Assembly: GCF_009905435.1 (NCBI RefSeq)
Contig: NZ_JAAAMT010000001.1
Coordinates: 248,001 to 312,000 of the forward strand
DNA length: 64,000 nucleotides
DNA from: Pseudomonas sp. R5(2019)
GTDB lineage: Bacteria > Pseudomonadota > Gammaproteobacteria > Pseudomonadales > Pseudomonadaceae
Direction of reading: 5' to 3'
Position 1 is the stretch's first letter, and each line of letters opens with the position of its first letter. This document shows positions 29,833 to 49,077 of this stretch, piece by piece. The translations under genes and the position numbers were made by a program. The notes beneath the pieces are model-generated. The model saw only the letters and a program-made list of their open reading frames with translations. It made no database searches and was not told the origin of the DNA.

Positions 29833-30642
29833 ATGATTCACGGTACAACACAGCTGGTAGGCATTATTGGTTCACCCATAGCCCAGGTGAAATCCCCGGA
29901 AAACTTCAACGCCTGGTTCAATGAAAATGCTGTGGATGTGGCCATGCTTCCCATCGACATGCGCGAAGCGCAACTTGCAGGTTTCGTGTCTGCCATGCGC
30001 GGCTGGAATAATCTGCGCGGCTGCGTGGTGACGGTCCCCTACAAACTGACCATGGCTGAACTGGTGGACGAGCTGAGCCCGCGCGCCGCGGCCTTGCGCT
30101 CAGTCAACGTGCTGCGCCGCGAAAGTGATGGGCGCCTGGTAGGCGATAATGTCGACGGCGACGGATTCCTTAATGCCGCCAAGGCGCACGGCTTCGATCC
30201 GGTTGGCAAGAGCGCGTTGGTGATCGGTTCGGGTGGCGTCGGTGCGGCCATCGCCTGGGCCCTGTGTCAGGGCGGTGTCCGTTGCCTGGGCATCGCTGAT
30301 TTGAGCGAAACGCGCATTCGCGCGCTGAAGGCAATTCTGCAAAACGCGTTCCCTGATATTGAAATTCACACTCAGTACAGCACCCTTTCCGAGTTCGACC
30401 TGGTGGCGAACGCAACCCCTGTGGGCATGGGCGGCACCGGTGAGACACCACTGCCTGCCAACCTGCTGCAAAGCCTGAGTGCCGAGGCGCTCGTCACCGA
30501 TGTGGTGACCAACCCCGTGCTCACGCCATTTCTGGAACTGGCTCGCAGCCGTGGCTGCCGGATCCAGACCGGCCCGGAAATGGCCCGTGCGCAACTCGCA
30601 AACCTGGGCGCCTTCATGGGCGTCACGGCGCTGAATATCTAA
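29833..30642 (+). CDS. shikimate dehydrogenase-family protein, catabolic paralogue
   Basis: AroE fold, 269 residues. The catalytic Lys71 (VTVPYKLT) and Asp108 (GDNVDGDGF) are kept, and the NADP-binding loop is GSGGVGAAIAWAL. The substrate-binding motif reads GSPIAQVKSP where true AroE has a HSxSP motif, so one of two carboxylate-binding serines is Val and the His is Gln. With an IclR regulator and FAD dehydrogenases as neighbours, this is probably a catabolic enzyme for a shikimate- or quinate-like compound, not the biosynthetic AroE. GGAG precedes the ATG. Confidence 0.88.
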   Translation: MIHGTTQLVGIIGSPIAQVKSPENFNAWFNENAVDVAMLPIDMREAQLAGFVSAMRGWNNLRGCVVTVPYKLTMAELVDELSPRAAALRSVNVLRRESDGRLVGDNVDGDGFLNAAKAHGFDPVGKSALVIGSGGVGAAIAWALCQGGVRCLGIADLSETRIRALKAILQNAFPDIEIHTQYSTLSEFDLVANATPVGMGGTGETPLPANLLQSLSAEALVTDVVTNPVLTPFLELARSRGCRIQTGPEMARAQLANLGAFMGVTALNI

Positions 30643-30661
30643 GTCCAGAACGGGGGCCACC

Positions 30662-32392
30662 ATGAACGCCATGCATCCATCCTCCCTCGACGCTCAAGGC
30701 GATGCGCAATACGACCTCATTGTGCTGGGCAGCGGCGCTGCCGGTTTCGCCGCAGCCACCACAGCCACCGGCCGTGGTCTTAAAGTCCTGCTGATTGAAA
30801 AAGCGCGGCAATTCGGCGGCACTTCGGCTATTTCCGGCGGCGCCGTGTGGATTTATGGCACCAACCAGGCCAAGGCGGCAGGCGTCCAGGACTCGGCCGA
30901 GGCCATGCGCACCTACCTGCGCCGGACCATCGGCCCAGGCTCCGACGCCGAGTTAATTAATGCTTACATCGAGCACGGCCATGAGGCCCTGCGTTGGTTG
31001 GAAAAACACAGCGAACTGACCTACAACCTACGTCCGATCTCACCGGACTATTACCCCGATGAGCAAGGCGGTACCGAGACAGGCCGAGCGCTGGAGATCG
31101 CCGAGTATGATGGCCGGCGTCTGGGCCAGCGCTTCAAGGACTTGAAGATGCCGCCACCGGGCATGCTGCTGTTCGGCGCAATGATGGTCAATCGCGTCGA
31201 CATTCAGCACTTTCTCAGCTTCAAGCGCTCTGCCAAATCGCTCTGGCACTGCATCAAGCTGATGACCAGGTATGGCCTGGATCGCCTTGGCCATCACCGC
31301 GGCACCCGGCTGACTACCGGCAACGCGTTGATCGCGCGCCTGGCAACCACTGCCTTCGAACGGGGTTGCGAGCTATGGCTCGATTGCACCAGCGAATCGC
31401 TCATCATCGAAGACGGCTGCGTGCGCGGCGTGGTGGTCAAGCACAATGGCCAGCTACGGCGCGTGCACGCTCGCGGCGGTGTGGTCATGGCCACCGGCGG
31501 CTTCGCTGCCGGGAGTATCGCCGCCAGTTATCGCCCCCAGGGCGACAGCGAACACTTGAGCATGTCCCCGGACACCAACGTTGGCGACAGCCTGCGCTTG
31601 AGTGAGGTGGTCAATGCCGCCAGCGGCGAGGATCTGGCCGCCAATTTCTTCTGGGCACCGGTTTCCGAATTGCAGCATGCCGACGGCGGCCGCGAACGTT
31701 TCCCCCACCTGGTCACCGACCGCGCCAAGCCCGGCGTCATCGCCGTGAACAAGGCCGGCGAGCGCTTTGTCAATGAATCCAACTCATACCACCACTTCGT
31801 GCAAACCATGTTCAACACCGGTAACACCCGCTGCTGGCTGATTTGCGACGCCACGGCGATGAACAACTATGGCATGGGCCTGGCGCGCCCACGTCCAGTG
31901 GACAACACCGAACTGGTCCGCCGCGGCTATTTGTACAAGGCCGACAGCGCCGAGCAACTGGCCCACGCCATTGGCGTGGATGCCCAGGGCCTGAGCCTCA
32001 CGCTGCAGCACTACAACGCCGACGCCCGCCAAGGCCTGGACAGCGCCTTCGGCAAGGGCAGCAATGCCTACAACCGCTATATGGGCGATCCGGAACACCG
32101 CCCTGACCCGTGCAACGCGCCCCTGCTCAAGGCGCCCTGGTACGGCATCGAGATCCATACCGGCGATCTCGGATCGGCCAGGGGACTGGTCACCAACGGC
32201 AATGCCAATGTGCTGGATCGCAGCGGCGCGCCGATTCCCGGCCTGTACGCGGCGGGCAATGACATGAACTCGTTAATGCGCGGCACCTATCCGGGCCCCG
32301 GCATCACCCTCGGCCCCGGCCTTGTGTTCGGCTATCTGGCCGCCACCCATGTTGCAGAGTGCCTCGGCACGCCGACCCCAGTCATTCACTAG
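30662..32392 (+). CDS. FAD-dependent oxidoreductase (KstD/fumarate-reductase flavoprotein type)
   Basis: A 576-residue flavoprotein. The dinucleotide motif GSGAAGFAAA is at about 20-29, then EKARQFGGTSAISGGAVW; the C-terminal FAD segment is GLYAAGNDMNSLMRGTYPGP. This class introduces or removes C=C bonds next to a carbonyl (3-ketosteroid dehydrogenase, fumarate reductase flavoprotein, urocanate reductase). It lies 19 bases after the aroE-like gene and has a paralogue two genes downstream. No signal peptide is seen. Dehydrogenation or aromatisation of a cyclohexene-type acid would fit its neighbours (inference). Confidence 0.9.
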   Translation: MNAMHPSSLDAQGDAQYDLIVLGSGAAGFAAATTATGRGLKVLLIEKARQFGGTSAISGGAVWIYGTNQAKAAGVQDSAEAMRTYLRRTIGPGSDAELINAYIEHGHEALRWLEKHSELTYNLRPISPDYYPDEQGGTETGRALEIAEYDGRRLGQRFKDLKMPPPGMLLFGAMMVNRVDIQHFLSFKRSAKSLWHCIKLMTRYGLDRLGHHRGTRLTTGNALIARLATTAFERGCELWLDCTSESLIIEDGCVRGVVVKHNGQLRRVHARGGVVMATGGFAAGSIAASYRPQGDSEHLSMSPDTNVGDSLRLSEVVNAASGEDLAANFFWAPVSELQHADGGRERFPHLVTDRAKPGVIAVNKAGERFVNESNSYHHFVQTMFNTGNTRCWLICDATAMNNYGMGLARPRPVDNTELVRRGYLYKADSAEQLAHAIGVDAQGLSLTLQHYNADARQGLDSAFGKGSNAYNRYMGDPEHRPDPCNAPLLKAPWYGIEIHTGDLGSARGLVTNGNANVLDRSGAPIPGLYAAGNDMNSLMRGTYPGPGITLGPGLVFGYLAATHVAECLGTPTPVIH

Positions 32393-32403
32393 GAGAACAA
32401 AAC

Positions 32404-32724
32404 ATGTACTACGAACTGCGTACCTACACCATCAAGCCGACTCGCCTGGCCGACTGGCTCGCCCTGTATCAGAGCGATGCCCTGGAAGTGCAGACCGAGC
32501 ACCTGGGCAATCTGGTCGGTTTTTTCACCACCGAATTCGGCGCTGGCAACCAAGTTGTGCACATCTGGGCCTATGACAGCCTGGATGATCGCATTGCCCG
32601 CCGCACCAAGATGGCCGCAGACCCACGCTGGGCCGAGTTCAGCCGCAAGAACAAGGAACTGGACGCTGTCGTCAATCTGGAATCGCGCCTGATGCGCCCT
32701 ACCGGCTTTTCCCCGCTGAAATAG
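32404..32724 (+). CDS. NIPSNAP-family protein
   Basis: A 106-residue protein with one NIPSNAP (ferredoxin-like alpha/beta-barrel) domain: MYYELRTYTIKPT at the start and VVHIWAYDSLDDR in the middle. The fold is related to small dimeric alpha/beta-barrel enzymes, often found in catabolic operons; its activity is not established. The start at 32404 is set by AGGAG 9 bases upstream. It lies 11 bases after the first FAD oxidoreductase. Confidence 0.88.
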   Translation: MYYELRTYTIKPTRLADWLALYQSDALEVQTEHLGNLVGFFTTEFGAGNQVVHIWAYDSLDDRIARRTKMAADPRWAEFSRKNKELDAVVNLESRLMRPTGFSPLK

Positions 32725-32790
32725 TGGGAAAATCTGCGCCGTCCCGCAAGGCCGGCGCCCCCTGACCAATGAAGAAAAAAGGAGTCCCCC

Positions 32791-34503
32791 ATGCTTGCCC
32801 GCCCTCCGCTGGATTGCGACGTTCTGGTCATTGGTTCCGGTGCTTCTGGCCTGGCCGCAGCGGTTACCGCCGCGCACCAGGGATTGCGGGTGGTGGTGGC
32901 AGAAAAACACACCCAATTGGGCGGCACCAGCGCCTGGTCCGGCGGCTGGATGTGGATACCACGCAATCCTCTGGCGATCGCCGAGGGCAATATTGAAGAA
33001 CCCGGCGCACCTGAGCTGTACCTCGAACAACAGCTGCATCGCCAAACGCTGGACCGCCGTCAGCAGGCTTACCTACAGGCGGGCCCGCAGATGGTCGAGT
33101 TCTTCCAGAACAACACCGCTGTACAGTTTTTTTCCGGTACCAGGATGCCGGATATGCATGCCGGCCTCGGCTCCCGCAACGGCGGGCGTTCACTCTGCGC
33201 ACAGCCCTTCGATGGCCGTGAGCTCGGCCCCTGGATTCAACGCATGCGAGCGCCGCTGGATATCGTCAGCCTGGCGGGCATGGGAATTGCCGGCGGCGCC
33301 GACATGGCCCATTTTTTCAATGCCAGCAGCTCGCCCAAGGCCGCACTCCATGTTGTTCGCCGGCTGCTTCGCCACGCCCGTGATCTGCTGCTGTATCGCC
33401 GTGGCATGCAGCTGGTCAATGGTAATGCGTTGGTGGCACGGCTGCTGCGTAGCGCCCTGGACCGCCAGGTTCAGTTTTTCACCAGCAGCAGTGCCCAGAG
33501 CCTGTTGCAAGAACAAGGGCGAGTCTGCGGTGCGCGCCTGCAGAGCCCGGAAGGCTCTATTGAGGTGCGTGCCAGACGCGGTGTCGTACTGGCTTGCGGT
33601 GGATTTCCCCATGACCCTGGACGCATCGCCCAGTTGATTGACCATGCACCCAGCGGTGAGGAACACCGCTGCGCGGCACCTTTGGAGAACAGCGGCGACG
33701 GCCTGCGCCTGGGCGAAGCGGCTGGTGCACAGGTCAGTGACGATCTGGTGAATGCCGGGGCCTGGGCGCCAGTGTCGTTGGTACCGCGCCAGGACGGCAG
33801 CTTCGGGCATTTCCCGCACCTGCTCGACCGCGCCAAACCCGGCTTTATCGCGGTCCGCCGTGACGGCCGGCGCTTCACTAACGAAGCGGATTGCTACCAC
33901 GATTTCATGAACGACCTGTTTCGCAGCACCGCGCCGGGAGAGCCCCACGAAGCCTGGCTGATCTGTGACCACAAGGCACAACGTCGCTACGGTATTGGCT
34001 GGGCCAAGCCGTTCCCTTTTCCAACTCGCTGGTACGAGCGTCGCGGTTACCTGTTCAAGGGCCGCACCGTCAAGGAACTTGCAGCCCGCTGCGGGATTGA
34101 CGCCGAGCAACTGCAAGCCACATTAGGGCGTTTCAACCAGTTTGCCGCCAAGGGCACCGACCCGGACTTCGGCCGTGGCGAGTCGAGCTATAACCGCGCC
34201 CAGGGCGAGGTTTTACATGGCCCTAACAGTTCACTGCGACCGCTCGATCAAGGGCCGTTTTATGCGGTGAAATTACTGCCTGGCAGCCTCGGTACCTTTG
34301 CCGGCCTGCGCAGTGACGAACGCGCCCGTGTATTGGACGCTTCGCAACAGCCCATTGCCGGCCTGTTCGCCGTTGGCAACGACATGGCCAGCATCATGGA
34401 CGGCCACTACCCCAGCGGCGGCATCACGCTGGGTCCCGGCATGACGTTCGGTTACCTGGCCGGGTTGACCCTGGCCGAACACGGACCCACCAGCGCTAGC
34501 TGA
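32791..34503 (+). CDS. FAD-dependent oxidoreductase, paralogue of the upstream gene
   Basis: A 570-residue flavoprotein of the same family as the gene at 30662, with GSGASGLAAAV near residue 13, EKHTQLGGTSAWSGGWMW, and the C-terminal segment GLFAVGNDMASIMDGHYPSG. The two share motif order and length throughout (TDRAKPGVIAVN versus LDRAKPGFIAVR), indicating an old tandem duplication around the NIPSNAP gene. GGAG precedes the ATG. Last gene of the operon. Two divergent copies may act on successive intermediates or form a heteromer. Confidence 0.9.
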   Translation: MLARPPLDCDVLVIGSGASGLAAAVTAAHQGLRVVVAEKHTQLGGTSAWSGGWMWIPRNPLAIAEGNIEEPGAPELYLEQQLHRQTLDRRQQAYLQAGPQMVEFFQNNTAVQFFSGTRMPDMHAGLGSRNGGRSLCAQPFDGRELGPWIQRMRAPLDIVSLAGMGIAGGADMAHFFNASSSPKAALHVVRRLLRHARDLLLYRRGMQLVNGNALVARLLRSALDRQVQFFTSSSAQSLLQEQGRVCGARLQSPEGSIEVRARRGVVLACGGFPHDPGRIAQLIDHAPSGEEHRCAAPLENSGDGLRLGEAAGAQVSDDLVNAGAWAPVSLVPRQDGSFGHFPHLLDRAKPGFIAVRRDGRRFTNEADCYHDFMNDLFRSTAPGEPHEAWLICDHKAQRRYGIGWAKPFPFPTRWYERRGYLFKGRTVKELAARCGIDAEQLQATLGRFNQFAAKGTDPDFGRGESSYNRAQGEVLHGPNSSLRPLDQGPFYAVKLLPGSLGTFAGLRSDERARVLDASQQPIAGLFAVGNDMASIMDGHYPSGGITLGPGMTFGYLAGLTLAEHGPTSAS

Positions 34504-34850: not shown

Positions 34851-37800
34851 ATGCTCATGCGATTGGCCTCAGCAAGTAACAGAATTGAACTTTGCCTTTG
34901 GGCCGGTCGCAATCTACTTGTTACAGGCAGTCTTCTGACCATTGCCTTCACCTCCTCCGCTCAGTCGCAATTAACCACTCCAGACGCTAAAGGACACACT
35001 TGTAGCACCGAACCCGCCCGATTCGAAGTAGGTCAACAATCGCTTGATGCCGCTCGCAAGGCATACCCGGCTGCTGCTCTTGTTCCAGAATCAATGTCAG
35101 GCTGGGAAAAGCTATCGAATGTGGTTGAAGAGAATGCGCCGGGGGATGAAGGCACGGGAGGGCTCAGCGCGAACGGAGTCAAGCTGTATGGGCGCAACAA
35201 AGACTGCTTCCCCACCGAACCGCGAAACCTTTTCAGCGAAGTAGACAAAGTCATCGTCGGGAGCGACTTGTCTCCCCGCCCCATCGACTATAACGAAGGC
35301 AAAGGCGTCCCGGAGCATGCACGCCAGGCCATCAAGGGTCAGAACACCTGGATGCTCTGGGGCGAGGGAAACGAAGCCTTCTGGGGTTGGTTGCAACAAA
35401 ATGGATACGGTATCGCCGACTTCCTGATTCTTCTGGATTCGAGAAAGCGTGACACCCGGTTTGAAGATGCCGGCCTGATGAATCAGCCCGGTATGATCAA
35501 ACGTGAAACACCCATTGATGGGTTGGGCCTTTACCTCGATCAGGCTGACGGCGATAACGTCAAGATGATCGCCCCTAAGGACGATATCGACGCTGAAACC
35601 CAAACGCCTGTCGAACCTCAAAAGCCGCCGACCACGCACAAAGGGGAAAGCTTTCGAGAGTTTTTCGAAGTCGGCGACAAAGACTCCTATAAAAAGATCA
35701 TCGACCAGCTCGCCAATGACGGTGTCGATCCACTTGTATACGGCTACCCTTCCGGCGTAGTCGGATTACGGCTTATGCCCAATCCGGACTTCTTCGGCAG
35801 ATCGGATACCGCCATTGAAGCGCGCAGGTATTGGCAGCAGCAGGTCGTCGACAATAAAAACGGCGGCAGCGAGGCGTACTACTCTTCGGAAGGAAACAGG
35901 GTGAGCGCCGATCCAAAGCTCGTACGTCCATTCCGGGTCGCCATGGCGTGCTCATTCTGTCATGTCGGGCCGCATCCGCTATCGCCTCCGGGGAATCTCG
36001 AAAATCCGGCCTGGGGCAACATGTCGAGCACCATCGGTAATCAGTACTGGAGGCCGGAAAAGGCCTTCTCCAATCTCAGGCACGAAACAAGTTTTCTCTG
36101 GCAGTTTGTCGCGAGCCAGCAGCCGGGCACGATCGATACCTCGCTCATCAGCACGGACCACATCAATAACCCTAATACAATTAATGCGATCTTCGAGGTC
36201 AACCCGCGATTGGCCCGCGCCGGGTTAAACCCACCCGAGCAACAGAGCCCGGCCAATCTTGAACAACGTGGCATCGAGGACGACCCGGATTTCAAGTCGA
36301 ATCCACGCCACACGCCGCGTGTACTACTTGATGGTTCGGATAGCATCGGCGTCGAAGGTGCACTCTCGCGTGTCTATCTGAATATTGGTGCTTACTCCGA
36401 ACAGTGGAATCGCCTGCACAATCCTGTCATCGGGTTCAAACCACAGCGCCCCTTCGAATTGGCGACGATCAAGAACAAATCGGTCTACTGGCAAGCCACC
36501 GAGGAATACCGCATCCCTCAGCTCGAGAGTTTTTTTACCTACGTATCAAAAACCGGTGCCAGCGTGACGCAGCCGATGAAACTGGAGTCGATCCCAGAGG
36601 GACGGGCTCGCATCGACAGCAAACGCGCAGATGCATTAGATGGCCGCACTGTGTTCCTCAAAAACTGCGCTGTCTGCCACTCCAGTAAGCAGCCGCCCGA
36701 CCAGCAGTTTGCATTTTCGCGTGAATGGCGCCTCGCCAAGACCGGAAACCTATCCACGCTGACAATGCCAATGGACTTCACCGACTGGGAAGCCTTCAAG
36801 CTCAGCGACAAATACCTCGATTACCTCAAGAGCCTTTTCGCCTACGAGATACAAGAGTCGGCCCTGGAGCGTGACTTGTTCAAGGACAACTATCTGTCCA
36901 CCGACATCCGGGTGCCGATCACGCTGGTTGGGACCAACTCCCAACGTGCAGTCGCGACCAATGCCATGCGTGGCCAGGTCTGGGACAACTTCTCCTCGGA
37001 AACCTACAAGTCGCTACCTGCCGTGGGTAGAATCCGCTTCTTCAATCCATTCAAGTCAGCGGGTGGCGTAGATGAATGGGGCAACAATGACAGCTATGTT
37101 CCCCCGCCCGGCGGCCCGGGTTATTACCGGCCGGCTTCGCTGGTGGGTCTGTGGGCCACCGCTCCGTTTCTTCACAACAACGCCTTGGGAATCTTCAACA
37201 ATGACCCCTCGGTCAAGGGCCGCCTCGACGCCTTCGATGATGCAATCGACAGACTACTGAACAAGAACAAACGCGTAGCTGAATACACTAATCCAAAGGA
37301 TTTGCGCACGGCTATGGATTTCCGCCAGCGGTTCGCGGGAGATACCGTTGTCGCTGGCACACCCGGTTTCAGCGATTCGGGCCTGATCTACCGGACCACT
37401 GCGCGGTCCGAGATCGATTTTCGTGGACCCTTTATCCGTCCGCTGTTAAACGGCGTGCTGGGTGATACTGCCACCTCGATCATCGCCTTGTACCTTTGGC
37501 TGGCCCTGGCTGCGATCTCTCTGGTTCTGGTGTTCATCGGCCGGGCACGCCTGGCAGCCAGCGCCCTCCTCTTGCTGATGGCTGTGACAGCGGTGCTGCT
37601 GCGTATCACCGGCGTAGACAGCATCTACCCATGGCTGTGGGCGATTCCGGCAGTGGCTTTGTTGGCCGCCTTTGGGTTCTTGTTGCGTCCACGCTCGATT
37701 CTGGCCCCACGACTGTTTTTCGGTGCCAGCACTGTTGTGTTCCTGGCGGTCGGCCTGTTTGCCAATGCTTACGTCGACGGCCATATCAGTCCCATCGAAA

Positions 37801-38129
37801 TTCGCCCCATCCCTAAGGGAACGCCGGTGAACCTGATCATGAACATGAACCCGCAGGCGCCGGTGCTGGATCTGGTCAGGGCGACCTCAGCGCTTACCCG
37901 CGCAATACTGCGCGTGCGCAAGGACGACTTGCTCGATGATGAACCGACCACTGACCAACGGCCCGCAGGCCACTTCCAGGCACTTGCAGCGTTCCAGGAA
38001 GAAGCCGGTCCGGCGTTGCTGAAGGTCAGCAAGTGCCCGGACTTCGTAGCCGACCGTGGCCACTGGTTCGGTGAATACCTCTCGGACGTCGAGAAGAAGC
38101 AACTGAAGGCTTTCCTCGAAACATTCTGA
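34851..38129 (+). CDS. large di-heme cytochrome c-type protein with membrane tail
   Basis: A 1092-residue protein. A long N-terminal leader ends in a hydrophobic stretch (LLVTGSLLTIAFTSSAQSQ), so the body is periplasmic. Two haem c motifs are C367-SF-C370-H371 and C606-AV-C609-H610. Residues about 875-975 contain three or four membrane helices, followed by a periplasmic-looking tail. I do not recognise the whole as a named family. It precedes a GMC flavoprotein fusion by 28 bases, so it probably accepts that enzyme's electrons, as cytochrome subunits do for other GMC dehydrogenases (inference). AGGGGA precedes the ATG; a longer frame from 34752 lacks a signal-peptide start. Confidence 0.85.
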   Translation: MLMRLASASNRIELCLWAGRNLLVTGSLLTIAFTSSAQSQLTTPDAKGHTCSTEPARFEVGQQSLDAARKAYPAAALVPESMSGWEKLSNVVEENAPGDEGTGGLSANGVKLYGRNKDCFPTEPRNLFSEVDKVIVGSDLSPRPIDYNEGKGVPEHARQAIKGQNTWMLWGEGNEAFWGWLQQNGYGIADFLILLDSRKRDTRFEDAGLMNQPGMIKRETPIDGLGLYLDQADGDNVKMIAPKDDIDAETQTPVEPQKPPTTHKGESFREFFEVGDKDSYKKIIDQLANDGVDPLVYGYPSGVVGLRLMPNPDFFGRSDTAIEARRYWQQQVVDNKNGGSEAYYSSEGNRVSADPKLVRPFRVAMACSFCHVGPHPLSPPGNLENPAWGNMSSTIGNQYWRPEKAFSNLRHETSFLWQFVASQQPGTIDTSLISTDHINNPNTINAIFEVNPRLARAGLNPPEQQSPANLEQRGIEDDPDFKSNPRHTPRVLLDGSDSIGVEGALSRVYLNIGAYSEQWNRLHNPVIGFKPQRPFELATIKNKSVYWQATEEYRIPQLESFFTYVSKTGASVTQPMKLESIPEGRARIDSKRADALDGRTVFLKNCAVCHSSKQPPDQQFAFSREWRLAKTGNLSTLTMPMDFTDWEAFKLSDKYLDYLKSLFAYEIQESALERDLFKDNYLSTDIRVPITLVGTNSQRAVATNAMRGQVWDNFSSETYKSLPAVGRIRFFNPFKSAGGVDEWGNNDSYVPPPGGPGYYRPASLVGLWATAPFLHNNALGIFNNDPSVKGRLDAFDDAIDRLLNKNKRVAEYTNPKDLRTAMDFRQRFAGDTVVAGTPGFSDSGLIYRTTARSEIDFRGPFIRPLLNGVLGDTATSIIALYLWLALAAISLVLVFIGRARLAASALLLLMAVTAVLLRITGVDSIYPWLWAIPAVALLAAFGFLLRPRSILAPRLFFGASTVVFLAVGLFANAYVDGHISPIEIRPIPKGTPVNLIMNMNPQAPVLDLVRATSALTRAILRVRKDDLLDDEPTTDQRPAGHFQALAAFQEEAGPALLKVSKCPDFVADRGHWFGEYLSDVEKKQLKAFLETF

Positions 38130-38157
38130 TGTGTTGCGTTCGTTAATCGGAGCCGCC

Positions 38158-41100
38158 ATGGATCACGATGCATTGAAGCCCAACCGGGAGCAACTGCTGG
38201 AACGTGCCGAAAACCCGCAAAAAACACCCTTCGATTACGTGATTGTGGGGTCGGGAGCCGGTGGCGGTCCGCTCGCAGCCCGGCTGGCCATCAACGGGCG
38301 ACGGGTCCTGCTTATTGAAGCGGGCGTTGATCCCGCGGCGGAGGATCGCGAGGTTTATAACGTGCCCGCCTTCCACGCTGCGGCGACGGAAGATCCGGAA
38401 ATCACCTGGGATTTCTCGGTCCGTCACTATGCCGACAATACACAGCAACGCCAGGACTCAAAGTACAACGAACATAAGGACTTTCCCATAAACGGCGTTG
38501 GGGATTCGGGAGGCATTCAGTATCCCCGCGCAGCAGCCATCGGTGGCTGCACTGCGCACTACGCACAAATCATCATCCGGCCAAACGACGCGGACTGGGA
38601 CCGGATAGCCGAATTCACCGGCGATCCGTCCTGGCGCTCCGAAAACATGCAAGGGTACTTCGCGAAAATTGAGAACTGCCTGTATTACACGGTCTATAGG
38701 GGTTTTGTCGGCAAGTTGTTGGGCGGGCTACTTAGAGTCGTCCAGATTATCGCTACCCGGCTCAACCCACGTCGACAGCTTGATCCTGGTGGTCATGGAT
38801 TCAAAGGCTGGCAGAAGACCAGTTTCATTGATCCGCTGGTAATCGCCGGGATAGTACGAGGCGATCGGACTTTCCTGCGCGTACTCAAGGATGTTTTGTT
38901 TTCTTTTCTCGGCAAGCAGCGTGATCGCTCGATGCTCGGTCGCGCCATCGCCAGGCTGCAGCTCCTTCAGTTTTTGGACCCTAATGTTCGTTCGCCAGAG
39001 ATACCGACCCGCGATCATCTGTCGCTGATTTCGATCGGCACTGACGGCAAACGTCGCCACGGCTTGCGGGAACACTTGCTGGATGTCGCTAAGCGATTCC
39101 CGGACCGACTGGTTATTTTGAATCCGGCCCACGCAAGACGTGTGTTGTTTGAAAAAGATGAGAATGATCCCGCGCCCAGGGCTGTTGGCGTAGAGGTCCA
39201 GCTTGGCGCACACCTTTACCGTGCTAGCCCGAAGAGTAAATCCATCGTGGAGGATTCGAGTCCAACGCAATACTTCGCACGTCTGGAGGTAATTGTTAGC
39301 GGCGGTGCTTTCAATACACCGCAGCTACTGATGCTCAGCGGCATCGGTGATCGGCAGCACCTTGAGGAACTGGGCATTGAAGGCCCGCGTGATAAAAACG
39401 GTGCGCAGCTAACGGAAATCGTAAATTTGTCGGGGGTCGGCAAGAATCTGCAGGACCGTTATGAAGTCAGCGTTATCAGCGAAGCGAAGTCAGCGTTTTC
39501 CACGCTGGACGGGGTTTCCTTTGAGCCGGATAAACATGGCGACCCTGCCCGTGAGCAGTGGCTGCGCGACGGAACGGGGCTCTATTCAACTAACGGAGGC
39601 GCTATCGCCTTTATGTTGTCGTCCAAGCACAACGCCGAGCCTCGCGTCGACCCCGACCTCTTCATCTTTGGCGTACCTGCAGCATTCCGCGGCTACCATT
39701 GGGGGTGGTCAAGGGAGCTACTGCACAAGACGATGGGCGCGACGACCGAGTCGCGCAATCTGTGGAGCTGGGTCATCCTCAAGGCCTATACCAACAACGA
39801 TCAAGGCGTCGTTCGCCTGCACAGCAACAACCCGCTGGATACCCCGAAGATCAACTTCAATTCATTCGAAGACAGTTCCCCAGAAGGCCACGGCGCCATG
39901 AAAGATGTCGAGGCCTTGTGCGAAGCGATTGAAGTCGTGCGCAAGATCAATGGGGATGTCACTGTCTTTGACAATGAAGTGCAGCCAGGGTCGACGCGAG
40001 CGGATGGCTCACCTCAGCTGAAACAATGGATAAAGGACGAAGCCTGGGGACACCATGCCTGCGGCACGTGCCGGATGGGCAGCGAGCCCCATCGCAACGA
40101 CACGCTTCTGCTTGAAGACTCTGGCGCAGTCCTGGATAGCCGTTTCTGCGTACATGGTGTGAAAAACCTGCGCGTGGTCGACACCTCTGTCTTCCCCTAC
40201 ATTCCGGGCTATTTCATCGCCACGCCAACCTTCATGATTGGCGAGAAAGCCGCCGATGTGCTGCTGGCTGATTCCGACGACTATCCGCAAAAGCTTGAAG
40301 CGGTGGAAGCGGCTGCGATTCGGGAGCGCCGCACGGCCGTTGATCCCGAATACCAGGATCCCCAAACGGATACCGCGAGGTTGCCCAAGGACACGATCGG
40401 GCTCGCGTTTTCGGGCGGCGGTATCCGCAGTGCGACCTTCTGCCTTGGCCTGCTCCAGGCTCTGGCGAAGTGTCATCGACTGCGTGATATCGACATCGTG
40501 TCGTCAGCCTCTGGCGGTGGCTATATTGCCGCGTTTCTGGGGCGTCTCTTCACTCGGATGCGCCCGGATCTGCCCAACAAGGCCGCGCGGGTGGAGTCGA
40601 TACTCAAGGGCTCTCCCGAAATCGACTGGCTGCGGCGCAATTCCCAGTACATTGACGGGGGCGGGCGTGGTGACGCCCTGTTCGATGCGGCCATCGTGCT
40701 GCGCAACCTGGCAACCGTACATCTTTGGCTGGGCACCCTGTTGTTCGGCGTGTTCGGGTTGATTCGCTGGCTGGCCATCACCTTCCTTGGCGATGTGATA
40801 CCAGTGACCCTGTTTGAAATAACCCTCTCGGCCTGGTGGTGGCTGCCTGGTGGACTGTTGGTGTTGGGTGTGCTTCCCCCCGCCATCGGCTACTGGTTGG
40901 TGATGCAGGACCCAACCCGTAACTGGCGCGCGTTGCTGCCATTGCTCGTCTGGCTGACTTTTCTTGGGTGCGCAATCTACGGCCTTGCATTGCCTGCAAT
41001 CACAGCCTGGTGTGGCGTGGCCATCGTCGTACTGCTACTGGCTTTGCTGTTGCAGGAAGGCGCGAGATGGAACATCCCCAGCAAAACAGCCTCCATGAAA

Positions 41101-42846
41101 TGGGCGCTACCCGACGATCCGGATGAAGGCAATCCGGCGGACAAGAGCGCCATCGTGCGCAATCGGCTGACGCGGCTTTTCGGCGTGGGACTGTTCGGTT
41201 TCGCCGTCAGCATCCTGTGGGTGGTTCTGGATACAGGCGCGCAGTTCGCTGCCAGCGACATGCCCATGATCGGATGGTCGATTGTTGGACTGGCACCGTT
41301 GCTCCCGTTGTTGCGGGGTGTCGCGACCGGGCTGCTCAAAGGCCCACCGTCGGGGGCCGTTTCGTCTTTCGCAAAGGGCCTTGGATTACCGATCCTGATG
41401 GGCACGGTAACATTCCTGCTCGTGTTCCTGCTGCTGATGTACCTCAATATGCTCGCGCACCTGGTGTTCCTTCGGGACCTTCAGGTCGGCACCTGGTGCG
41501 TGATGACGGCCCTGCTCGTTTCCGCCGTACTGGGGCAGACGCTTTCCCTGCTCAATCTGTCTTCTTTGCAGCAAGCGTATTCGCAGAAACTGGTGCGGAC
41601 CTTCCTTGGCGCTTCGAACGATGCGCGAGTCCATCCCACCGGTACCAATACACCCGTACCGGTCAACGTCAGCGACCTGGGAGATGACATCGATTTTGAT
41701 ACCTATCATCCCGAACGCACGGGAGGCCCATTGCATCTGGTCGGTACCTGCTTGAACAACTCCGTCGACCCTTTGTCCGGCAACCTCCTGCGTGACGACA
41801 ACGGCATGCCGATGTGTCTGGGGCCAGCAGGCATTACCGTCGGACGGCGCTTTCATGCGCTATGGGAGCCGCGCGACACCGACACCCCGGCGCGCCAGGT
41901 TCCTGTGGCAGCCATCAATGTGGCGCCCGACCCCAATCAGTTTCATGTCCTGTCACGCTCCGATGACAAGCCGGTCACGGTGGAACGCTTGCGCCTCGGC
42001 CAGTGGATGGCGATCTCCGGGGCGGCCTACACTACTGGCTCGGGTCGCAATACGAAACTGTGGCGATCGTTGATTCTGGGTCTGGTCAATCTTCGCATTG
42101 GCTATTGGTGGAACAGCGGTATCCCCGCCGGCCGGCGACCGGGGCGTTACCCGCCAAGTCTTTGGCGCGCCTTCAAGTCCCTGCCGTCGACTGTCTTTGC
42201 CTTACAGGCGAGCTTGCTGAACGAGTGGCGAGGCTATTTTGCCGGTCCTGCCGAGCGGCTTTGGTACTTGAGCGATGGTGGACATTTTGACAACACCGGG
42301 CTCTACGAGCTGATTCGCCGTCGCCTGCCCATCATGATTGCGGTCGATGCGACCAGTGACCCGAATTATGTGTTCGATGATCTCGCGCTGCTTACGCGGC
42401 AAGTGCGTCTCGACTTTTGTGCGGAAATAAAATGGCTCAAGCCGGTCAGAACCACCGAAGTCAACCCGCCCCCTGATATGCCAGGTTGGAAAGCTTCCTG
42501 CGACTCAACGGGAGAAGTCAGCGTGCCACTGTGGATCGCAACCCATGTCCAGCAAAAAGCCGTCGGTGCGATCGAGGAGATCAAGCGCACAGGTCCCTTC
42601 GGTGCCGCGTTGGCACAAATAACCTATTCAGACGAACATCCTCCGAGCTGGCTACTACTGGTCAAGCCCTGCCTGTTTGCCGACCTGCCCACGGATCTGC
42701 GTACCTACGCGTCCATGCACGAGCGCTTTCCCAACGAAACCACGCTGGACCAGTTCTTCGACGACAACCAGTGGGAGGCTTACCGCATGCTTGGAGAAAC
42801 AGCAGGTCAGAAACTTTTCGCTGAGCCTGATGATTGCAGGAGGTAG
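38158..42846 (+). CDS. GMC oxidoreductase fused to membrane-embedded patatin lipase
   Basis: A 1562-residue fusion. Residues 1 to about 700 are a GMC flavoprotein (cholesterol oxidase/choline dehydrogenase type): VGSGAGGGPLA at 30-40, GGCTAHYAQIIIRPND near 129, GGAFNTPQLLMLSGIG, and His632/633 in WGHHACGTCRMG. The usual C-terminal Asn-Pro is replaced (FIATPTFMIGEKAAD). Residues about 745-1562 are a patatin: GGGIRS near 752, nucleophile S785 in SSASGGGY, and D1373 in LSDGGHFDNTG. About eight membrane helices (about 850-1140) lie between nucleophile and Asp. No signal peptide is seen. GGAG precedes the ATG at 38158. The lipoprotein gene starts 3 bases downstream. Confidence 0.92.
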   Translation: MDHDALKPNREQLLERAENPQKTPFDYVIVGSGAGGGPLAARLAINGRRVLLIEAGVDPAAEDREVYNVPAFHAAATEDPEITWDFSVRHYADNTQQRQDSKYNEHKDFPINGVGDSGGIQYPRAAAIGGCTAHYAQIIIRPNDADWDRIAEFTGDPSWRSENMQGYFAKIENCLYYTVYRGFVGKLLGGLLRVVQIIATRLNPRRQLDPGGHGFKGWQKTSFIDPLVIAGIVRGDRTFLRVLKDVLFSFLGKQRDRSMLGRAIARLQLLQFLDPNVRSPEIPTRDHLSLISIGTDGKRRHGLREHLLDVAKRFPDRLVILNPAHARRVLFEKDENDPAPRAVGVEVQLGAHLYRASPKSKSIVEDSSPTQYFARLEVIVSGGAFNTPQLLMLSGIGDRQHLEELGIEGPRDKNGAQLTEIVNLSGVGKNLQDRYEVSVISEAKSAFSTLDGVSFEPDKHGDPAREQWLRDGTGLYSTNGGAIAFMLSSKHNAEPRVDPDLFIFGVPAAFRGYHWGWSRELLHKTMGATTESRNLWSWVILKAYTNNDQGVVRLHSNNPLDTPKINFNSFEDSSPEGHGAMKDVEALCEAIEVVRKINGDVTVFDNEVQPGSTRADGSPQLKQWIKDEAWGHHACGTCRMGSEPHRNDTLLLEDSGAVLDSRFCVHGVKNLRVVDTSVFPYIPGYFIATPTFMIGEKAADVLLADSDDYPQKLEAVEAAAIRERRTAVDPEYQDPQTDTARLPKDTIGLAFSGGGIRSATFCLGLLQALAKCHRLRDIDIVSSASGGGYIAAFLGRLFTRMRPDLPNKAARVESILKGSPEIDWLRRNSQYIDGGGRGDALFDAAIVLRNLATVHLWLGTLLFGVFGLIRWLAITFLGDVIPVTLFEITLSAWWWLPGGLLVLGVLPPAIGYWLVMQDPTRNWRALLPLLVWLTFLGCAIYGLALPAITAWCGVAIVVLLLALLLQEGARWNIPSKTASMKWALPDDPDEGNPADKSAIVRNRLTRLFGVGLFGFAVSILWVVLDTGAQFAASDMPMIGWSIVGLAPLLPLLRGVATGLLKGPPSGAVSSFAKGLGLPILMGTVTFLLVFLLLMYLNMLAHLVFLRDLQVGTWCVMTALLVSAVLGQTLSLLNLSSLQQAYSQKLVRTFLGASNDARVHPTGTNTPVPVNVSDLGDDIDFDTYHPERTGGPLHLVGTCLNNSVDPLSGNLLRDDNGMPMCLGPAGITVGRRFHALWEPRDTDTPARQVPVAAINVAPDPNQFHVLSRSDDKPVTVERLRLGQWMAISGAAYTTGSGRNTKLWRSLILGLVNLRIGYWWNSGIPAGRRPGRYPPSLWRAFKSLPSTVFALQASLLNEWRGYFAGPAERLWYLSDGGHFDNTGLYELIRRRLPIMIAVDATSDPNYVFDDLALLTRQVRLDFCAEIKWLKPVRTTEVNPPPDMPGWKASCDSTGEVSVPLWIATHVQQKAVGAIEEIKRTGPFGAALAQITYSDEHPPSWLLLVKPCLFADLPTDLRTYASMHERFPNETTLDQFFDDNQWEAYRMLGETAGQKLFAEPDDCRR

Positions 42847-42849
42847 ATC

Positions 42850-44337
42850 ATGGCAGCCATGCCCATTCCCCGAGCACTGATGCGATGTGCGTTCCTGCTG
42901 ACTCTGCTTGGGCTGTCTGCGTCTTGCGGCCTCTATAACGTCCCGCACCGGCCAGTTCAGCCAGAGCGAGTCTCCGCCAGTACTGCGCATGCACCTGGTG
43001 CGGGATTCGATTTGCAGTTTATCGAATCGGACGATCAAGGCTGGTTCTGGAATCCGGAGCAGGCCGTTTCCGCTCTGTCGACCGTAAAAACCGCGACAGC
43101 TGAAGGTAATACGCTGGTAGTGCTTTTCATCCATGGCTGGCATCACTCCGCGGCTTGCTACGATGACAACGTCGAGGCATTCAAACGCGTACTGCAGCGT
43201 TTGCACGTTGAGCTGGATCAAAAAATGTACCGTGAGGCAATGCCGACAGTGCGCGTCATTGGCCTCTATGTTGGCTGGCGTGGACGCTCACTGCCGGGAC
43301 TGATCGACTACACGACATTTTGGGGACGCAAGTCGGCCGCAAGACGTGTTGGTGAAGGCGACCTCCAGGAATTCATGGCCAGGTTACAGCGAATATACAA
43401 CGATCATTCCGACGGGCGAGTGACCGACGGCAAGCAGAAACCTTTTTTTGGACTGGTCTCGATTGGCCACAGCTTCGGCGGGGCCGTATTGCTCGCGGCT
43501 ACCTCCCGCTACTTTGAGAGCCAAATGCAGTTGGCCAACCCGGCCAGCGGATTCTTGCGAACAGCACCTGTGATCCCGACTGGCTCCACTGCCCCCACCA
43601 CATCGCAGAGTGCTAAACCTGCAGCCATAAACCCTCCATTGCGCGGCTTTGGTGACATGGTCGTCCTCGTCAATCCTGCCGTCGAATCGGCGGCCTACGA
43701 GCGCATCAACATTCTTTCACGCGGTATCACTTACGGCTCCGACCAGACGCCTTTACTCGTCACGTTTTCGGCGCAAAACGATGGTGCCCGCAATAGCTGG
43801 TTCAAGGCCGGTCGAATCGCCGGGGAATTCTTCACAAATGCTGCTCCCGTCCACGACGACCGGGAGCGAGCCAGCCTCCGCGAAGCTCTAGGTGTATACA
43901 ACCACGGTGGCAGCGGGATAACTCACTCGCTTACTCCGATTGAGACTCAACACTTGGTTTCGAGCCAGCAGGACGAAGCTCCTGATTCGCAATGTACAGA
44001 CAAGCGACCAGACACATTTGAGTGGTGGCGCTGGGTCGATAAGCCGGTGAGCCCCGATACTCCTTTCCCGAATGACACGATAAACGTGAAGGCTGCCGAC
44101 GTTCGGGAGCTGGCTTCGTTCGACTTCTCCCAAGACGCTAAATATTCTGACTTGAGGCTATTACCGGCCAAGCCTGTAACAGCTCATCAGCCTTTCATGG
44201 TTGTCTCGGTCAACGAGCAGATCATCGATGGCCACACTGGAATCTTTTCAGAACCGTTCATGAGCTTTCTGACGCGCTACATCGGCCTCACCGAGGCGAA
44301 GCGAATTTTGCTCGGTACGCAGGCCAGCAAGCGCTGA
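42850..44337 (+). CDS. lipoprotein alpha/beta hydrolase (esterase/lipase-like)
   Basis: A 495-residue putative lipoprotein. The leader ends in a lipobox, LSAS-C26. The alpha/beta-hydrolase elements are the strand and oxyanion loop VVLFIHGWHHSA and the nucleophile elbow IGHSFGG with S208. A candidate acid/His pair near the C-terminus is DGHTGIFSEPFM, which I cannot confirm. AGGAGG stands 6 bases before the ATG and only 3 bases separate it from the GMC-patatin stop, so the two are coupled. It would release acyl groups at the envelope and feed the flavoprotein or cytochrome (inference). Confidence 0.85.
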   Translation: MAAMPIPRALMRCAFLLTLLGLSASCGLYNVPHRPVQPERVSASTAHAPGAGFDLQFIESDDQGWFWNPEQAVSALSTVKTATAEGNTLVVLFIHGWHHSAACYDDNVEAFKRVLQRLHVELDQKMYREAMPTVRVIGLYVGWRGRSLPGLIDYTTFWGRKSAARRVGEGDLQEFMARLQRIYNDHSDGRVTDGKQKPFFGLVSIGHSFGGAVLLAATSRYFESQMQLANPASGFLRTAPVIPTGSTAPTTSQSAKPAAINPPLRGFGDMVVLVNPAVESAAYERINILSRGITYGSDQTPLLVTFSAQNDGARNSWFKAGRIAGEFFTNAAPVHDDRERASLREALGVYNHGGSGITHSLTPIETQHLVSSQQDEAPDSQCTDKRPDTFEWWRWVDKPVSPDTPFPNDTINVKAADVRELASFDFSQDAKYSDLRLLPAKPVTAHQPFMVVSVNEQIIDGHTGIFSEPFMSFLTRYIGLTEAKRILLGTQASKR

Positions 44338-47293: not shown

Positions 47294-49039
47294 ATGAGTA
47301 CAGTAGATCCGATCACCCTGGCAGTCGTGCGAGGCGCACTTGAAACCGCGCAGCGCGAAATGACCCTGACCCTGGAAAAGACTGGCCGTTCGAGCGTTTT
47401 CAACCTGGCTCACGACTATTCCAACGCCCTCTTCGACCACCTTCCGGAGATGATCCTGCAAGGACAGGACATTCCAATCCACCTGGGATCGCTGATTCCT
47501 GCAATGAAATGCGTCGCCGGCTTCTTCGGTGATGACATCAATGAAGGCGACGTGATCTATCACAACGATCCGGCCTACAAGGGCAGCCATATTCTCGACT
47601 GCTGCATGTACAAACCGGTCTTCTACAAAGGCGAACTGGTGTTCTGGACGGTCTGCAAAGGCCACCTGACCGACATCGGCGGTCCCGTACCCGCCGGCTA
47701 CAACCCGGACGCCAGGGAAATCTACGCCGAAGGCTTGCGTATCCCTCCGGTGAAACTCTGGTCACAAGGCCAGCGTCGTGAAGACGTGATCAACCTGCTG
47801 CTGACCAACATGCGTGCCCGCGCTTACCAGGAGGGCGACCTGAACGCTCAGTATGGCGCGTGCACCGTCGGTGAAAGGCACTTGCTCGAGTTGCTTGACC
47901 GCTACGGCGTGGAGCAGGTTCGGGCGTGCATCGCCGAGTTGAAAGACATGGCTGACCGCCACATGCGCGCATTGCTGCGAGATGTACCCGACGGCTTTTA
48001 CACCGGCACCGCCGTTCTCGAGGACTCGGGTCATGGCCTGGGCGAACTGTCGATCACAGCGCGTGTGGAAATTCGCGGCGATGAAGCCCACGTACTGATC
48101 GAAAGTCCGCCGCAAGTGCCCTACTTCATCAACTCCTACGCCGGCAACTCGGTGTCCGGGGTGTACCTGGGGCTGATGATGTTTGCCCAGGTGCCGCCGC
48201 CGTACAACGAAGGGCTGTATCGCTGCGTGACTGTCGACCTCGGCCCACCGGGCACCTTGTGCAACGCGCAAGAACCGGCACCGCATGTCAACAGCACCAC
48301 GACGCCGATGGAAACCCTCGCCGATGCCGTGCGCCAGGCCCTGGAACAGGCGGCACCGGATCGCGTCACCGCCTCCTGGGGCCACGCCAGCGGGATCAAC
48401 ATTGCCGGCCACGACCCACGCAACGGCAACGACGAATACGTGACCATGGTCCTGGCTTCGATCATCTCCGGTGCCGGTGCGAACAAGGCAATGGACGGCT
48501 GGCCGGCCTGCGGCCCGCTGTGTTGCTTCGGTGCGCTGATGTCCGGCGATATCGAGTTGCTGGAATACTCCTACCCGGTACTCATCCACCGCTACAGCCT
48601 GATGACCGATAGCGGTGGCGCCGGGGAGTTCCGCGGTGGCTCGGGCACCCGCATTGAAATCGAGCCACTGAACCATGCCATGACCGTGGTCGGCTTCGGT
48701 GAAGGTCGACAACTGCCCACCGCCGGCGCGGCTGGCGCGACCAACGTCTTGCTCGAACCCAAGCTTGGCCGGTTGATCCACCGCAAGGTGAACGGCGAAG
48801 AAGACCACTTTACTTACAACGCGCTGCTGACCGCTCAACCGGGTGAACGCGTGATCAACGTCAACCCGGGTGGCGGCGGCTATGGCCACCCGTTTCGACG
48901 CCCCGTCGCCAGCGTGTTGAACGACGTCCTCAACGGCCTGGTTTCGCCAGAAGGCGCACGCCTTGAGTACGGCGTGGTGATCGACAGCAACGGCCTGCTC
49001 GACGAAGCAGAGACCCACGCTCACCGCGTCATGCATTAA
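47294..49039 (+). CDS. hyuB: hydantoinase B/oxoprolinase family protein
   Basis: Large HyuB-type subunit (581 residues) of an ATP-dependent hydantoinase/5-oxoprolinase/caprolactamase/acetone-carboxylase-like enzyme. Family features: ITLAVVRGALETAQREMTLT at the start, DVIYHNDPAYKGSHILD, GGAGEFRGGSGTRIE and the closing NVNPGGGGYGHPF. It opens a cyclic amide together with HyuA, whose gene begins 38 bases downstream. The exact substrate (N-methylhydantoin, oxoproline, lactam) cannot be read. Confidence 0.93.
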   Translation: MSTVDPITLAVVRGALETAQREMTLTLEKTGRSSVFNLAHDYSNALFDHLPEMILQGQDIPIHLGSLIPAMKCVAGFFGDDINEGDVIYHNDPAYKGSHILDCCMYKPVFYKGELVFWTVCKGHLTDIGGPVPAGYNPDAREIYAEGLRIPPVKLWSQGQRREDVINLLLTNMRARAYQEGDLNAQYGACTVGERHLLELLDRYGVEQVRACIAELKDMADRHMRALLRDVPDGFYTGTAVLEDSGHGLGELSITARVEIRGDEAHVLIESPPQVPYFINSYAGNSVSGVYLGLMMFAQVPPPYNEGLYRCVTVDLGPPGTLCNAQEPAPHVNSTTTPMETLADAVRQALEQAAPDRVTASWGHASGINIAGHDPRNGNDEYVTMVLASIISGAGANKAMDGWPACGPLCCFGALMSGDIELLEYSYPVLIHRYSLMTDSGGAGEFRGGSGTRIEIEPLNHAMTVVGFGEGRQLPTAGAAGATNVLLEPKLGRLIHRKVNGEEDHFTYNALLTAQPGERVINVNPGGGGYGHPFRRPVASVLNDVLNGLVSPEGARLEYGVVIDSNGLLDEAETHAHRVMH

Positions 49040-49077
49040 TCAAGCCCAGCCCCTCAGAGCAACCAGAGACTCACACC

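Follow-up and report, generated by a model that had tools for sequence, protein, structure and literature searches.

Few bacterial oxylipin systems are known to us. Among the described systems closest to the locus reported here, the gluconate, fructose and sorbitol dehydrogenase complexes contain a Tat-bearing small subunit and a tri-haem cytochrome. A second point of comparison is the oleate-diol synthase pair PA2077/PA2078 of Pseudomonas aeruginosa, which is secreted and acts on fatty acids; one report assigns PA2077 (FadCcp), from mutants, as a di-haem oleate dioxygenase (PMC4496055).

The locus lies in a window of 64,000 nucleotides, by which we mean the whole stretch of DNA analyzed. As in the gluconate, fructose and sorbitol dehydrogenases, its GMC gene adjoins a c-type cytochrome gene; however, the window cytochrome has two CXXCH motifs only, the GMC active site is non-canonical, and there is no room for a Tat-bearing small-subunit gene within the tight cluster. 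Like PA2077 and PA2078, the cytochrome appears related to RoxA and the cytochrome c peroxidases, but it is 1092 residues long, has an inserted membrane segment and scores below the family cut-offs, whereas the P. aeruginosa pair are two di-haem proteins of 634 and 624 residues, with no GMC or patatin mentioned in the accessible part of PMC4496055. With the rubber oxygenases RoxA and RoxB it shares the di-haem c-type character and probably a C-terminal axial His and a MauG-like motif; against this, its similarity to them is local only, it has no Trp at the presumed W302 position and it gives no sign of a polymer substrate.

Organization of the locus

Three genes lie side by side, with intergenic gaps of 28 and 3 bases (Table 1), as a preliminary description had reported; the length of 1562 residues that it gave for the GMC-patatin fusion was confirmed for the ATG start. 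The FAD-binding, haem and hydrolase motifs that it noted are present (GSGAGG, CXXCH and GHSFGG), and so are those of the patatin, with a qualification on the Ser elbow.

Table 1. Features of the three-gene cluster, with positions in the window; residue counts are over the 21 aligned core loci.
Feature	Position	Strand	Basis or remark
Large di-haem c-type protein, 1092 aa, signal-like hydrophobic N-terminus	34851..38129	+	ATG start 34851; sequence, profile matches below cut-off
Haem motif 1, CSFCH (H371)	35949..35963	+	His in 21/21 aligned relatives
Haem motif 2, CAVCH (H610)	36666..36680	+	His in 21/21 aligned relatives
MauG/RoxA-motif-like APFLHNN (H775)	37161..37181	+	His 10/21, Leu 10/21, Ser 1/21
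Four predicted transmembrane segments, inserted ahead of C-terminal part	37455..37754	+	Hydropathy
CPDFVADRGH (H1071)	38034..38063	+	His in 21/21; likely second axial ligand of haem 2
GMC flavoprotein fused to membrane-inserted patatin	38131..42846	+	Start GTG 38131 (1571 aa) or ATG 38158 (1562 aa)
FAD-binding GSGAGG	38248..38265	+	Motif in translation
GMC catalytic His motif GHHACGT (H642)	40048..40068	+	His in 21/21
PGYFIATP, second GMC catalytic position, here Ala	40204..40227	+	Ala or Val in 21/21
Patatin SGGGIRS and Ser elbow SASGGG	40411..40521	+	Motifs in translation
Nine hydrophobic segments between patatin Ser and Asp motifs	40708..41535	+	Hydropathy
Patatin Asp motif LSDGGHF	42268..42288	+	Motif in translation
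Putative lipoprotein alpha/beta hydrolase, 495 aa, accessory	42850..44337	+	GHSFGG elbow 43465-43482; Abhydrolase_6 below cut-off

Among the other loci examined, L027 and L062 alone contain a homologue of the third gene (27% identity). With a homologue in 3 of 25 core loci its adjacency is rare, which speaks against the core role proposed for it in the preliminary description; the gene is optional. The lipobox ascribed to its product, LSASC, is weak (Ser at -3), although in both homologues, too, the N-terminal hydrophobic stretch ends in a Cys. A PDB search with the hydrolase gave nothing at E <= 1.

Distribution and linkage of the cytochrome-GMC pair

A locus was classed as core-type when the cytochrome profile matched it strongly, which for the scored loci meant a best piece of roughly 470 bits or higher; L028-L030 entered the set by BLAST or HMM. 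A distant cytochrome group scored 152-261 bits against the same profile. The GMC gene lies directly 3′ of the cytochrome gene in all 25 core loci and directly after it in 21 of 21 plasmids compared by eye. Eight of the 25 have a fused patatin and seven a nearby one, and the stretches covered for the remaining 10 showed none. The proposal of a conserved unit is thereby borne out for the cytochrome and GMC genes, with a patatin fused or nearby in 15 of 25 loci.

The GMC or GMC-patatin protein was what initially led to L001-L005, L027-L030, L035, L037 and L038, so that their pairing is in part a product of selection. A count without this selection comes from 21 genomes found by the cytochrome profile, in which an adjacent GMC was present in 15, absent in 5 (G738, G1133, G1196, G1285 and G1355) and undecidable in one owing to a short contig (G1109); a patatin was fused or near in 7 of the 15. 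The cytochromes without an adjacent GMC are five distant relatives, four of them lying beside RoxA-like di-haem proteins; one of the five loci, L069, has a weak GMC-model match (2e-9) about 3 kb away. Calothrix and Microvirga records of the GMC clade, which are plasmid records only, contained no cytochrome.

The distance matrices of cytochrome and GMC agree closely (r=0.957, 0 of 2000 permutations, n=21), a Mantel value that may partly reflect clade structure. These matrices and the residue counts out of 21 cover 21 of the 25 core loci, leaving out L030 (cytochrome cut at the contig start), L060 (cytochrome and GMC each split in two ORFs), L088 and L089. The pair was found again in Paraburkholderia, Crenobacter, Rhizobium, Sinorhizobium and Mesorhizobium, indicating that the locus is not a chance arrangement. 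It is nonetheless rare and scattered, occurring in 3 of 199 genomes in the genus and in 8 of 299, 5 of 398 and 7 of 385 elsewhere, and a megablast of the gene cluster against plasmids returned none.

Not counted among the 25 were L006 (Nocardia, 33% over 94 residues); L031, L032 and L034, which have a patatin alone; L033, a GMC fragment where its contig ends; L036 and L039, whose GMC is not accompanied by a cytochrome; L070 (3.3 kb contig); L063 and L066-L069 (distant cytochrome, no adjacent GMC); repeats of the same places (L007-L011, L040-L054, L071, L072, L084-L087); and L012-L026, which are generic loci of GMC or patatin genes and in part recur as L031-L033.

The di-haem protein

The 1092 residues and two CXXCH motifs of the cytochrome agree with the preliminary description, but the membrane part is an internal insert and not a C-terminal tail: four hydrophobic segments near residues 869-968 stand before the last conserved ~100 residues, which hold the invariant H1071. 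Unfused relatives such as L027 and L028 have a cytochrome without this insert. From the table of RoxA haem ligands in PMC6311187, H1071 is likely the second axial ligand of haem 2, at a position presumably equivalent to RoxA H641. The spacing of 239 between H371 and H610 lies within the ~200-245 of the RoxA/FadCcp di-haem oxygenase superfamily and compares with 245 and 235 in PA2077 and PA2078 (PMC4496055).

In profile searches the cytochrome appears as a distant outlier within the RoxA/oleate-diol-synthase di-haem superfamily, with scores below the curated cut-offs. It matched NF040606 at E 1.5e-9 (37.6 bits, cut-off 150), as the only protein of its genome to match that model at E <= 0.001, and the RoxA-like PF21419 at 2.2e-4 (21.2 bits, cut-off 26.7). 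A RoxA-like HMM built here gave E-values of 4e-9 to 2e-12 with seven large cytochromes, of which L028, L030 and L065 are core and four are distant; the window cytochrome was not among its matches. Profile-profile comparison with RoxA-like proteins was weak, aligning 26 columns at 70%. In a PDB profile search RoxA (4b2n) appeared at 0.021 only, ranked below ordinary cytochromes c, which align around the second haem motif, and the cytochrome subunit of a quinone alcohol dehydrogenase appeared at an insignificant 0.95. The sequence alone found nothing in PDB at E <= 1, and no relative was found in the viral contigs searched with the cytochrome profile. AlphaFold2 with a six-row alignment gave a pLDDT of 32 and a pTM of 0.23.

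The position that we presume to correspond to RoxA W302 is Leu or Lys in 21 of 21 relatives, and the MauG-motif His is lost in 11 of 21; some members may therefore not be oxygenases. RoxB has Val at the W302 position (PMC6311187).

The GMC and patatin parts

Both Pfam GMC domains scored above cut-off (GMC_oxred_C, 5.4e-22; GMC_oxred_N, 1.4e-15). The catalytic pair of GMC enzymes is usually His-His or His-Asn; here the first His is kept but the second is replaced by Ala or Val in all 21 relatives, so that the canonical pair is absent. Among the other GMC stretches of the same genome, the second position is Asn in five, Thr in one and Ala in one (7 resolved out of 11). No export signal was found in 20 of the 22 GMCs tested, a set that includes L036 and L039 and is without L060, L065, L088 and L089; the L030 protein has a Tat-lipoprotein-like start and that of L027 a hydrophobic N-terminus. 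Since c-type haem proteins are made outside the cytoplasm, the GMC would mostly occupy a compartment other than that of the haem protein.

Of the solved structures, fatty acid photodecarboxylase gave one of the best profile matches to the GMC (7.2e-62), and the PxIPG motif is common to both. Membership of that family was rejected, since C432, its key residue, aligns with a small residue (consensus Ala, read by eye). A further difference is that the window protein keeps the GMC catalytic His. The photodecarboxylase R451 falls in an insertion of the same alignment.

Patatins are marked by GGGxR, G-X-S-X-G and D-G-A/G. The window protein has GGGIR and DGG, with an S-A-S-G-G elbow instead of G-X-S-X-G, and its Pfam Patatin score (7.4e-6, 26.7 bits) is one bit below the cut-off of 27.7. 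Three other fused proteins have 7-8 hydrophobic segments between the patatin Ser and Asp motifs.

Neighboring genes in related loci

A lipid-oxidation theme, as earlier proposed, is present among the neighbors of related loci. Rhizobium johnstonii pRL11 carries two RoxA-like di-haem proteins, of which one exceeds the NF040606 cut-off and the other does not, together with an OYE, and the gene order is the same in Sinorhizobium fredii and G1368. The fatty-acid alpha-dioxygenase pathway of plants and cyanobacteria is a further point of comparison: an alpha-dioxygenase homologue directly follows the GMC gene in G343, on the opposite strand (5.5e-112), and another lies 2.5 kb before the GMC-patatin gene in Calothrix (9.5e-121). 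Both have full-length homology and the HDW and Y-x-x-H motifs of the rice and Arabidopsis enzymes, whereas a Crenobacter protein gave no HDW match in this comparison. However, no such homologue was found beside the window genes, and a transposase gene and two unknown genes intervene in Calothrix, where the link may thus be accidental. CalDOX of Calothrix parietina (PMC8720084) is possibly, though not certainly, identical with the protein of Calothrix PCC 6303.

In a parallel to the Lcp rubber degraders with their OxiAB-type molybdenum aldehyde dehydrogenase, a molybdenum aldehyde-dehydrogenase-like gene lies near in 7 loci, all within one family; the best match of the L055 protein is an aldehyde dehydrogenase large subunit (3.9e-75). 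DyP-like proteins occur in L057 and L061. A sensor-kinase-like gene stands beside the cluster in L001-L004 and L064; in L057 it is more distant.

Discussion

That the first two genes travel together in scattered bacteria, in some cases near probable fatty-acid oxygenases, suggests an undescribed envelope lipid-oxidation route. We put at slightly under one half (about 0.47) the probability that the window genes represent, in fused form, a lipid-oxidation module that is rare and has probably spread by horizontal transfer. Its core would consist of a large membrane-associated di-haem c-type protein, probably an outlying relative of the RoxA/FadCcp/cytochrome c peroxidase superfamily, and a GMC flavoprotein whose active site departs from the canonical one. 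The membrane-embedded patatin would release acyl chains, which a haem protein would then oxygenate; here this is probably the di-haem protein itself, and at other loci RoxA-like di-haem proteins or a fatty-acid alpha-dioxygenase may also add the oxygen. The GMC flavoprotein would oxidize or rearrange the resulting hydroxy, hydroperoxy or aldehyde product, and at some loci a Tat-type molybdenum aldehyde dehydrogenase may take it further. While linkage, families, motifs and distribution are direct observations, we infer from them the substrate, the reaction order and a catalytic, as opposed to purely electron-carrying, role of the di-haem protein. A bolder form of this reading, which we regard as possible but somewhat unlikely, is an undescribed bacterial oxylipin or fatty-aldehyde pathway in which giant membrane-inserted di-haem oxygenases of a new family and an unusual GMC act on acyl chains cut by the patatin from the cell's own or a host membrane, with alpha-dioxygenase as an interchangeable oxygenase.

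The preliminary description, whose interpretation is partly supported overall, had the hydrolases free an alcohol or sterol and the GMC pass electrons to the cytochrome. Such a lipid-alcohol dehydrogenase of the gluconate or fructose type, with the di-haem protein as acceptor to the respiratory chain, would account for the invariant pairing and co-divergence in core loci, and is consistent with the N-termini of the L030 and L027 GMCs, with a molybdenum dehydrogenase in seven loci of one family that would also need an acceptor, with the absence of the MauG His from 11 of 21 relatives, as would suit an electron carrier, and with the PDB ranking of ordinary cytochromes c above RoxA. However, no significant family or PDB match links the cytochrome to the corresponding subunit of a dehydrogenase of this type, its weak matches being to RoxA/FadCcp-type proteins; 20 of 22 GMCs show no export signal; and each partner occurs apart, the GMC clade in the Calothrix and Microvirga plasmid records and distant cytochromes in five loci. 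We therefore consider GMC-to-cytochrome electron transfer doubtful and this explanation rather unlikely, and nothing in the evidence seen here points to a sterol.

Peroxide coupling, in which a GMC oxidase would make H2O2 for use by a haem peroxidase, namely the di-haem protein in the window and alpha-dioxygenase or a DyP-like protein at other loci, has the merit that H2O2 can cross the membrane, so that separate compartments are no obstacle. A di-haem protein is present in every core locus by definition, that of the window is weakly matched by a di-haem peroxidase model, and some loci add other haem-peroxidase-family proteins; but we saw no sign that the GMC is an oxidase, and RoxA lacks peroxidase activity according to PMC6311187, making this account improbable. 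A role unrelated to lipid oxidation (defense, signaling or MauG-type protein maturation) is about as improbable, for although the rarity of the cluster and the sensor-kinase-like neighbor would fit it, RoxA-like, alpha-dioxygenase-like and aldehyde-dehydrogenase-like neighbors recur, and defense and phage readings were rejected as PADLOC (six proteins given) and PHROG (three window proteins) gave no match.

If the lipid-oxidation module is real, the cassette, whose carriers include rhizobia of plant nodules, would be a sign that bacterial lipid-oxidation pathways form a wider class, and a function could be given to a cytochrome family missed by the curated models used here. It would also provide a test of whether GMC enzymes can work without their usual catalytic pair.

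Linkage and distribution of the gene module

The three ORFs were confirmed as real and lie where the preliminary description had placed them (Table). In the GMC-patatin protein, both GMC halves passed the Pfam cut-off and Patatin fell one bit short of it; no Pfam match of the hydrolase or of the cytochrome exceeded the cut-off. A search of the open-licence literature found no paper whose title pointed to the combination of cytochrome, GMC and patatin.

Table. Coordinates of the module's ORFs and of a small protein encoded after GMC
Feature	Position	Remark
Cytochrome	34851-38129	ORF in the window
GMC-patatin	38131 (GTG) or 38158 (ATG) to 42846	ORF in the window
Hydrolase	42850-44337	ORF in the window
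~143-173-residue protein	L056:4795-5226	
~143-173-residue protein	L057:7463-7894	
~143-173-residue protein	L058:7658-8089	
~143-173-residue protein	L061:13570-14013	
~143-173-residue protein	L059	longer frame

The proposed co-occurrence of the three genes held for the first two, the GMC gene directly following the cytochrome gene in 25/25 core-type loci, 12 of which were first found via the GMC protein, so that the pairing is partly selected; it did not hold for the hydrolase, homologues of which were found besides the window only in L027 and L062. These loci, whose cytochromes match our profile A1 strongly, are the window, L001-L005, L027-L030, L035, L037, L038, L055-L062, L064, L065, L088 and L089. 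In the unselected set of 21 cytochrome-led genomes, an adjacent GMC gene was present in 15, absent from five, each of which belongs to the distant group of low scorers, and undecided in one. Among plasmids, each of the 21 records matched by the cytochrome also had an adjacent GMC match when coordinates were compared by eye, these records not being independent because 18 are from Rhizobium. Cytochrome and GMC distances were strongly correlated (r=0.957, n=21; 0/2000 permutations as high). Patatin was fused to GMC in 8/25 core-type loci (window, L001-L005, L064, L035), and separate and nearby in seven (L027, L028, L037, L038, L057, L088, L089). In the other ten, none was found within the sequence retrieved; in four of these (L029, L030, L056, L058) the contig breaks off shortly before the cytochrome gene.

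Several further features were observed at these loci. The cytochrome and GMC genes of L060 (genome G669) are each broken into two frames, possibly through decay or assembly error. A protein of ~143-173 residues is encoded directly after GMC in six loci (L056-L061) and had no Pfam match in the two cases tested (L056, L061); L057 and L061 have further genes in common (433 residues, DyP-like, about 400 residues). In the window, two flavoproteins resembling 3-ketosteroid dehydrogenases and a shikimate-dehydrogenase-like gene lie upstream of the cluster (29833-34503), possibly as a separate catabolic operon. On the other side, an NCS1-permease-like gene and a porin-like gene precede a caprolactamase beta region (47294-51168; NF050157 above cut-off), in which another ORF follows at 49078.

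Genome surveys with profile A1 (E <= 1e-10) detected the cytochrome in 3/199 genomes of the window's genus, 8/299 of the family around Paraburkholderia nodosa, 5/398 of the phylum and 7/385 of the class of G888; the window's genome and G888 were each counted twice, giving 21 different genomes. The fused form is carried by four Paraburkholderia and Crenobacter oryzisoli, and on Mesorhizobium onobrychidis pOM4 and Rhizobium sp. CCGE531/532 plasmids. The module is rare and patchy in occurrence, and has probably spread horizontally.

Family placement of the cytochrome

Both CXXCH histidines (spacing 239 in the window protein) and a C-terminal GH histidine were conserved in 21/21 cytochromes, and a MauG-like His was present in 10/21. 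In the set examined for export signals, all 21 cytochromes listed had a hydrophobic N-terminal segment. Reference ligands and motifs for the rubber oxygenase RoxA came from a table in PMC6311187, and those data for the fatty-acid di-haem peroxidase FadCcp from a portion of PMC4496055. The nearest Pfam model was RoxA-like_Cyt-c (2.2e-4, below cut-off). The NCBIfam di-heme-cytochrome C peroxidase model NF040606 matched at 1.5e-9 (37.6 bits; cut-off 150). The 6.0 Mb genome yielded no further hit to this model at E <= 0.001, and its remaining cytochromes reached at best 0.0078 against profile A1. Our own RoxA-like model matched seven big cytochromes (4e-9 to 2e-12), three core (L028, L030, L065) and four distant, the window protein not being among them. 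Direct profile-profile comparison with RoxA-like proteins gave a weak match, and in a solved-structure profile search RoxA 4b2n (0.021) ranked below ordinary cytochromes c and the cbb3 oxidase subunit 8smr (1.1e-4).

RoxA-like genes also recur as neighbours. On R. johnstonii pRL11 and on S. fredii pSF45436e, the big cytochrome, GMC and patatin occur together with an OYE gene and a pair of RoxA-like di-haem proteins; genome G1368 has the same set, patatin not being found. In four genomes of another class, probably Alphaproteobacteria (L066-L069), a relative of the cytochrome with no GMC gene next to it lies near two RoxA-like di-haem proteins. The model matches, the weak comparisons and these neighbours together lead us to place the cytochrome as a putative outlier of the RoxA/FadCcp di-haem superfamily rather than a member of RoxA or FadCcp. 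A mono-CXXCH protein is additionally encoded in L067 and L069; L067 also has a relative, 310 residues long, of the 143-residue protein seen after GMC elsewhere.

The GMC flavoprotein and neighbouring oxidation genes

The first GMC catalytic His was conserved in 21/21 proteins, and the second catalytic position was Ala or Val in 21/21. This position is Asn in choline oxidase; among the window genome's other GMC stretches, 7/11 of which were resolvable, it was Asn in five, Thr in one and Ala in one. By hydropathy and RR pattern only, 20/22 GMCs tested lacked an export signal, the L027 protein having a hydrophobic N-terminus and the L030 protein (1557-3371) alone a Tat-lipoprotein-like one. A Microvirga lotononidis plasmid encodes a GMC of the same clade (L039:8001-9926); nothing on the plasmid record matched the cytochrome, and the patatin model had no hit within the 17.9 kb retrieved.

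In genome G343, where the end of a RoxA-like gene precedes the cytochrome, GMC is followed 0.3 kb away by a convergent gene whose product is homologous over its full length to plant fatty-acid alpha-dioxygenase (5.5e-112). A plasmid of Calothrix sp. PCC 6303 carries another homologue (9.5e-121), encoded on the same strand as GMC and patatin and 2.5 kb upstream of them, but with two unknown genes and one for a transposase in between. According to an excerpt of PMC10947199, alpha-dioxygenases convert fatty acids to 2-hydroperoxides, which decay to aldehydes. In Crenobacter, a more distantly related An_peroxidase is encoded 5.3 kb away from the fusion. Overall, An_peroxidase was found in 3/21 carrier genomes searched, within 6 kb of the module in two (G343, G373). 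The window genome has one large An_peroxidase ORF, which lies beyond the window; at G000:C1:233808-240800, ~7-14 kb before the window, an open frame of 3630 codons carries two sets of matches to animal haem peroxidase. A molybdenum protein gene occurs in seven loci, all of one family. The L055 protein, the only one tested against PDB, best matched an aldehyde dehydrogenase large subunit, and both proteins run against Pfam, those of L002 and L055, begin with a Tat-like motif, judged by eye. OxiAB is thought to oxidise aldehydes in one rubber degrader, as part of PMC9782182 has it.

Proposed reaction scheme

The preliminary description had the GMC flavoprotein oxidise a lipid alcohol and pass electrons through the cytochrome to the respiratory chain, a scheme that is now weakened, as both the compartment evidence and the cytochrome's relatives go against it; GMC as a source of peroxide is our third choice. 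With the gene families and their linkage observed, the most likely scheme runs from patatin through a haem protein to GMC: patatin would free acyl chains within the inner membrane, a haem protein would oxygenate them, and GMC would act on the oxygenated product.
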